Assembly (NCBI GenBank): GCA_026391415.1
Contig: JAPLEL010000028.1
Span: 1-32,948 of the forward strand
Source of the DNA: Bacteroidota bacterium
GTDB taxonomy: Bacteria; Bacteroidota; Bacteroidia; Chitinophagales; Chitinophagaceae
Direction: 5' to 3'
Length of the DNA stretch: 32,948 bases
Shown: positions 31,601 through 32,083 of the stretch, one piece after another
Position numbering within the stretch: the first letter of the stretch is position 1
Layout of the letters: the number at the start of each line of letters is the position of its first letter
The notes under the pieces: model-generated
Seen by the model: the letters and a program-made list of their open reading frames with translations, nothing else
What the model was told of the DNA's origin: nothing
Databases searched by the model: none
Program-made: the position numbers and the translations under genes

Positions 31601-31979
31601 GATTTAATTCTACTACTACAGGCTTTTCTTTTACCACAATTATTTTACTTATAATTTCATAAGTAAGATCTTGTTTTTCAAAAATCATTTGTAGCGCTTG
31701 CTCAACAGTAATGTTCTTAGCAATAATATCAACCGGTTTGGCTTGTTGATTTAGCATAGATATATCATATACTAAATCATATCCACTTTGATTTTTAATG
31801 GATTTCAACACCTTTTCAAGTGGCGCCTTCTTCTCTGCCAATCTAATCTGGCCAAGTCCGGTAGCACTTACTTGCAAACTAGCAGCAAGCAGCATAATAG
31901 ACAATAGTTTCATAATTAGTTTTAAATTAATAGAGAATGTTGGATATGGCAACATTTTGCCATTAGCAATCGAATGCAT
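28602..31979 (-). CDS. SusC/RagA-family TonB-linked outer membrane protein with N-terminal STN signalling domain
   Basis: STN region ([26 protein letters not shown]...[11 protein letters not shown]), CarboxypepD_reg ([20 protein letters not shown]), plug ([33 protein letters not shown]), SusC motifs ([44 protein letters not shown]-like). Confidence 0.96.
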   Translation of the reverse strand: [1125 protein letters not shown]

Positions 31980-31986
31980 AGTTTTG
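31956..31986 (+). promoter_or_regulatory. Candidate Bacteroidota housekeeping promoter directed antisense to susC
   Basis: TTTG at 31956-31959, 19-nt spacer, TAGTTTTG at 31979-31986; fits the consensus TTTG-N19-21-TAnnTTTG. The -7 box overlaps the susC start codon on the opposite strand. Confidence 0.55.
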
Positions 31987-31990
31987 ATTT

Positions 31991-32083
31991 GTTTGGGTTT
32001 ACAATAAGAAGTCTGCGACGACTTTTAAACGAACGAGCCTAAACATCTGCCGTCTCAACTAGTATTGAGGCGGCTTTTGTTTT
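31991..32083 (+). ncRNA. Candidate antisense small RNA opposite the susC leader (ends approximate)
   Basis: Downstream of the predicted promoter; internal hairpin AAGTC-TGCGAC-GACTT (32009-32024); ends at a strong hairpin plus T-tract. No open reading frame needed to explain it. Confidence 0.5.
32049..32083 (+). terminator. Intrinsic terminator, plus-strand orientation, overlapping the fecR stop codon
   Basis: GCCGTCTCAA-CTAGTA-TTGAGGCGGC followed by TTTTGTTTT. On + the stem is complete with one T:G wobble; on - the same position is a C:A mismatch and the T-tract is missing. Confidence 0.75.

Follow-up and report, generated by a model that had tools for sequence, protein, structure and literature searches.

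DonS and the other PUL-associated cis-antisense RNAs of Bacteroides were reportedly described by Cao et al. in 2016. DonS is one of a group of 78-128 nt cis-antisense RNAs that are divergent to the susC homologs of Bacteroides PULs and lower them (PMC7366714). In B. fragilis, 15 PULs carry such antisense RNAs (PMC9723704), and 32 PUL antisense RNAs were found in B. thetaiotaomicron, with mixed correlations, some of them positive with their own PUL (PMC10994844). A negative effect on the cognate PUL is reported for one B. fragilis case only, with mixed correlations elsewhere, and the role of these RNAs is called nuanced and in need of functional work (PMC10994844). The mechanism of DonS-type RNAs is reported as unknown (PMC11697453). 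GibS and FopS of Bacteroides are likewise small RNAs tied to glycan use, but as a class they do not lie opposite a susC leader beside fecR; the target of GibS is a glycoside hydrolase mRNA, and only 4 of 14 FopS belong to the antisense class (PMC11697453).

The current work concerns a window (the whole stretch of 32,948 nt that was analysed) in which a fecR-susC pair is followed by the rest of a PUL. The comparative data make it likely that the + strand of the fecR-susC gap encodes a cis-antisense RNA of about 93 nt, which would keep this PUL quiet. Like DonS, the predicted RNA lies antisense to a PUL susC homolog, on its 5' side, and diverges from it; it falls in the 78-128 nt class (PMC7366714), and has at the sequence level its own sigmaA-type promoter, with a TAnnTTTG box, and a 3' end defined by an intrinsic terminator. 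It differs from DonS in lineage and sequence, and is here a prediction likened to DonS through the published description of the latter. The original prediction had expected a host outside Bacteroides and an RNA with its own sequence, and both expectations hold: among the named genomes compared, SecA is nearest to Paraflavisolibacter (Chitinophagaceae, 73%) as against 55% for Prevotella, so that the host is presumably a member of the Chitinophagaceae, and when the segment was searched as DNA against 60 related genomes, only the segment itself was returned. Rfam release 15 offers no likeness either, since the window matches none of its families at gathering score and the segment gives chance-level matches alone.

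In the window, the fecR stop (32082-32084, - strand) is followed by a 102-nt gap and then by the susC ATG at 31979 (-); the conserved register of the -7 box supports this ATG as the start codon. The features are collected in the table below. The PUL occupies 21232-31979 (-), and 3' of susC it contains susD, a DUF4397 protein, a right-handed beta-helix protein (lyase-like) and a heparinase II/III-like protein, which also has a weak F5/8 match. Other parts of the window encode a GH95 protein and an SSF transporter. The PUL substrate may, as a guess, be a uronic-acid glycan.

Features of the fecR-susC region, in positions of the window
Feature	Position	Strand	Basis or remark
susD-like gene, same PUL as susC	26988..28589	-	Pfam SusD_RagB
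susC-like TonB-dependent transporter, presumed target	28602..31979	-	Pfam STN (match slightly under the cut-off), CarbopepD_reg_2, Plug, barrel
-33-like TTTG of the antisense promoter, inside susC codons	31956..31959	+	N19 to the -7 box; weakly enriched in relatives
-7 box TAGTTTTG (TAnnTTTG)	31979..31986	+	sigmaA-type; first T opposite the A of the susC ATG
P1 closing stem, 5' arm UGUUUGGGUUU	31990..32000	+	fold; own pairing far above permuted; 8/11 pairs with two-sided changes
Predicted antisense sRNA, about 93 nt	31991..32083	+	fold, box, terminator
P2 inner hairpin, 7 bp, AGAAGUC / GACUUUU (32007-32013 / 32020-32026)	32007..32026	+	fold
P1 closing stem, 3' arm GAGCCUAAACA	32035..32045	+	fold, permutation, covariation
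Terminator hairpin, 10 bp, GCCGTCTCAA 32049-32058 / TTGAGGCGGC 32065-32074	32049..32074	+	10/10 pairs with compensatory changes
T-tract TTTTGTTTT	32075..32083	+	runs into the fecR stop codon; antisense-only in nearly all relatives
FecR-family anti-sigma factor	32082..32948	-	Pfam FecR and FecR_C; 5' end lost at contig end

The promoter, small hairpin and terminator that had been proposed as a unit of about 90 nt were all found in place on the + strand, base for base, and enclose a folded RNA. The small AAGTC/GACTT hairpin (32009-32013 / 32020-32024) is present, but its size had been underestimated, since the stem has 7 bp; in relatives, its position is loosely kept and its sequence is not. The 11-bp closing stem P1 had been overlooked. 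The 5' end of the RNA was set 5 nt past the -7 box by analogy with the boxes of F. psychrophilum (PMC9723704), which places it about 12 nt upstream of the susC ATG and leaves the start codon uncovered. Whether the RNA is complementary to the susC leader over its full length, as first proposed, would depend on where susC transcription begins. The RNA is predicted to be non-coding, as it contains no ATG and all three frames are closed or trivial. The segment 31990-32090 (+) folds with -33.5 kcal/mol (z = -5.1), and none of 200 shuffles was equally stable.

Relatives were collected by locating fecR genes through FecR_C (PF16344) and reading the gap to the next gene, in the genus, the order, the family, the phylum, ten named genomes and the family of a Prevotella genome. 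Terminators were counted in fecR-susC gaps of 60-300 nt. An antisense terminator was found in 24/31 gaps of the genus and 55/73 gaps of the family's other genera; the sense strand has one in 1/31 and 3/73, respectively. Ordinary co-directional gaps of one same-genus genome show the opposite trend (5/50 antisense, 14/50 sense), and the comparison of 79/104 with 5/50 antisense terminators gives Fisher p ~2e-15. Roughly one fecR-susC gap in four shows no detectable antisense terminator, and a perfect box is missing from most of them. In other families, antisense terminators occur in 8/11 (f25), 5/7 (f23) and 2/4 (f19) gaps, and several families have none. In the genome of the window itself (G000), one further fecR gap (L016, C181) has an antisense terminator and another (L031, C256) an antisense hairpin with a large loop and a T-run that the terminator finder overlooked; two short fecR gaps (L025, C233; L040, C112) contain neither antisense terminator nor box. 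The 82 hairpins detected represent 81 distinct sequences, though the loci share descent. The idea was to fall if relatives with a FecR-SusC pair did not conserve promoter and terminator; the comparison did not refute it, although what the relatives share is the anatomy and not the sequence. Promoter, body and terminator recur in fecR-susC gaps within the genus, across the family and in other families, with position and strand unchanged.

Some gap lengths are wrong because an ATG within the hairpin was taken for the start. At L018, L158, L168, L171, L177, L185, L299, L304 and L307, the terminator hairpin contains the ATG (ATGTTGGCGCAT...) with which the longest susC open reading frame begins, and automatic gene calls may therefore stretch susC across the antisense RNA. 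In family gaps such as L009, L083 and L148, the terminator hairpin has the form GGGAAATG-loop-CATTTCCC with the loop TTGNNG or its mirror. These hairpins have more sequence in common than termination needs, and may have a further function, for instance as a protein site or through a loop contact.

Promoters of Bacteroidota follow the pattern TTTG-N19-21-TAnnTTTG. Its TAnnTTTG part (PMC7366714) stands in a fixed place: when the gaps are lined up at the susC ATG, their antisense strand shows caTAnnTTTG, with the first T of the box opposite the A of ATG. The overlap of promoter and start codon noted in the window thus recurs in the same register, the exact 8-mer box being found in 42/108 fecR-susC gaps (15/31 in the genus) and in none of 281 background ATG starts, which were first-ATG open reading frames of one same-genus genome (Fisher p ~4e-27). 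A T at -1 occurs in 93/108 of these gaps vs 103/281 background starts. Among same-genus susC-like genes without a FecR neighbour, 0/17 have the box, and terminators are equally frequent on the antisense (4/17) and sense (4/17) strands; the unit is therefore tied to FecR and not to susC genes in general. CAAAnnTATG as a mere translation signal was rejected in view of the same 0/281 ordinary starts and 0/17 FecR-less susC genes. The upstream TTTG-N19 part of the promoter is present in the window but only weakly conserved in relatives: CAAA at the -33 spacing occurs in about 12% of boxed loci vs 2% of the background, and with such weak enrichment the -33 TTTG was rejected as a general feature of the loci.

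On the sense strand, 6-mer enrichment in the gaps gave no clear ECF promoter motif. The first codons of FecR-linked susC genes are often ATGnnnTTAACTGCT (e.g. L005, L089, L092, L147); ACTGC/ATTGC is found at +9 in 11/108 loci, while in the background it is spread evenly. A similar ACTGCT lies near -35 in some leaders, a DNA-level conservation inside or near the antisense promoter. Just past the fecR stop, some loci (e.g. L056, L083, L086, L095) carry a ACGATTGC..TATGA-like element, whose ACGATT occurs in 11/82 loci vs 2.3 expected; a sense promoter or a regulator site is possible.

Inverted repeats fold on either strand, and the hairpins could act in the fecR-susC transcript as a leader, attenuator or processing element; the sense strand does pair its own P1 segments better than permuted ones (-7.65 vs -5.53 kcal/mol). 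The evidence on the antisense strand makes this very unlikely. With a detection rule that scores G.U and A.C alike, the antisense-strand hairpins contain 64 G.U to 5 A.C, with 47 loci leaning to G.U and one to A.C (p ~4e-14); the terminator of the window provides an example, U32053.G32070 being a pair on the + strand only and A.C on the other. The U-tracts and the register of the box also belong to the antisense strand. When the body without terminator was compared with its own shuffles, the mean z was -2.33 for the antisense and -1.34 for the sense strand (Wilcoxon 3e-6), and the antisense fold was the better one in 55/71 loci. In an alignment-independent permutation test on all 71 usable loci, the 5' segment of each locus was paired with its own or with another locus's pre-terminator segment: on the antisense strand, own pairing averaged -10.9 kcal/mol vs -7.0 (sd 0.28) for permuted pairs, and 0/5000 permutations were as good. 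A diverse 38-sequence MAFFT alignment (A2) was too ragged, and a 19-sequence alignment (A1) was used instead. In A1, pairing holds in 81.3% of cells, with a covariation score of 0.512 vs 0.203 +/- 0.022 for shuffled alignments and at most 0.19 for slid structures. Two-sided changes affect 8/11 P1 and 10/10 terminator pairs, a count that leans towards the structure, because the structure came from the fold of the window itself and the loci that supplied the 19 sequences have good P1 pairing. RNAalifold on A1 recovered the terminator and missed P1, whose register slips between loci; hence the permutation and named-structure tests. The G.U bias and the covariation together suggest that the RNA is made from the antisense strand. 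The same data bear on the idea that the act of transcription does the work, by collision or occlusion at the susC promoter or leader, with the RNA as a by-product. The antisense promoter does lie within the sense transcription unit, and the terminator keeps antisense transcription from leaving the gap; interference alone, however, would not require a closing stem, and the covarying P1 and terminator, together with the low antisense z of the body, indicate that the fold is selected. This idea is considered unlikely.

A trans-acting RNA was also considered, in which a 5' part that many loci share (UUGUUUGGGUUUA) would pair with the leaders of other FecR-linked susC genes and so rank the PULs against one another. 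The leader motif TTAACCC/CCCAAAC is common to loci (TTAACC in 18 loci vs 1.7 expected), so that cross-pairing is possible, but this segment is held in P1 and the motif is missing from many loci, and the chance of a trans role appears slighter still than that of a sense-strand element. As a general caution, antisense promoters arise readily in AT-rich genomes (PMC7366714), and promoter-like and terminator-like sequences could have met by chance in an AT-rich gap. The box counts, the terminator counts and the covariation already contradict this reading as far as sequence comparison reaches, and its probability is close to negligible. Selection for an antisense RNA thus appears well supported, and promoter box, terminator, strand, fold, conservation and the FecR link are each supported by the genomes compared.

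A covariance model (R1) was also run; its E-values are rough. In 539 kb, composed of the window, random same-genus segments and FecR-less susC genes, the window scored 54.8 bits (as a training sequence) and everything else had E >= 0.6. Across ten genomes, 15 matches were obtained at E <= 0.01, 6 of them training sequences and 9 from outside the training set; all 15 lie antisense directly behind fecR, in fecR-susC gaps, as judged against FecR coordinates and, for the last one, by reading L312. In other families R1 finds few loci, and weakly (L204, 4.9e-5; L230, 8e-4; L284, 0.08). In L212, at 4291-4389, a susC gene of G010 without a nearby FecR_C match carries a GCGGGGAGTGTTGCAGCATTCTCCGC hairpin that is bidirectional and is weakly matched by R1 (E 0.93); this may be a remnant of the module that lacks fecR.

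Predicted lengths in relatives have a median of 93.5 nt, and 50/52 fall inside 78-128 nt. A Prevotella-centred family, presumably Bacteroidaceae to judge by that centre, has loci (L294, L299, L303, L304, L307) with the box on the ATG, a closing structure, the terminator at fecR and lengths of 79-105 nt. The RNA is filed as DonS-type, by anatomy, because size class, box, closing structure and terminator are shared with these loci. The kind of RNA is thus known, namely the DonS-type PUL antisense RNA; what is new is a conserved, covarying anatomy across several families.

We infer that the RNA is transcribed, that it pairs, and that it represses susC in the following way. The housekeeping sigma factor would start the RNA from the -7 box overlapping the susC start codon, so that the RNA would be expected whenever the housekeeping polymerase runs, and transcription would end at the intrinsic terminator exactly at the fecR stop, a position proposed to spare fecR and the sigma gene. 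Before induction, the RNA would pair with the leader of leaky or fecR read-through susC mRNA, from about -12 to the fecR end, and may lower susCD by keeping ribosomes from loading onto the A-rich leader, which has no Shine-Dalgarno sequence, by cleavage of the duplex, or by both. On induction, the cognate ECF sigma factor would fire susC. The susC transcription unit contains the antisense promoter, and strong ECF-driven transcription is therefore proposed to switch the RNA off as polymerase crosses that promoter; surplus susC mRNA would titrate the remaining RNA, giving a switch.

PUL antisense RNAs were previously described from Bacteroides, and in the genomes compared here they appear regularly at susC loci under FecR control, in another family as well as in several more. 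The covarying structure argues against transcriptional noise. Annotation gains several rules (a box on the ATG, a closing stem, a terminator at the fecR stop, absence from FecR-less susC) as well as a covariance model for RNAs that have no Rfam counterpart. On balance, though with considerable reserve, the RNA is regarded as an ancient and standard part of the FecI-FecR-susC module and not an occasional feature of Bacteroides. Its anatomy would be fixed by selection (a -7 box that overlaps the susC start codon, a closing stem and a terminator placed at the fecR stop), and it would provide a second lock at the RNA level, with sense and antisense transcription excluding each other. In these organisms, sugar-uptake genes are probably held off by an antisense RNA until they are needed.
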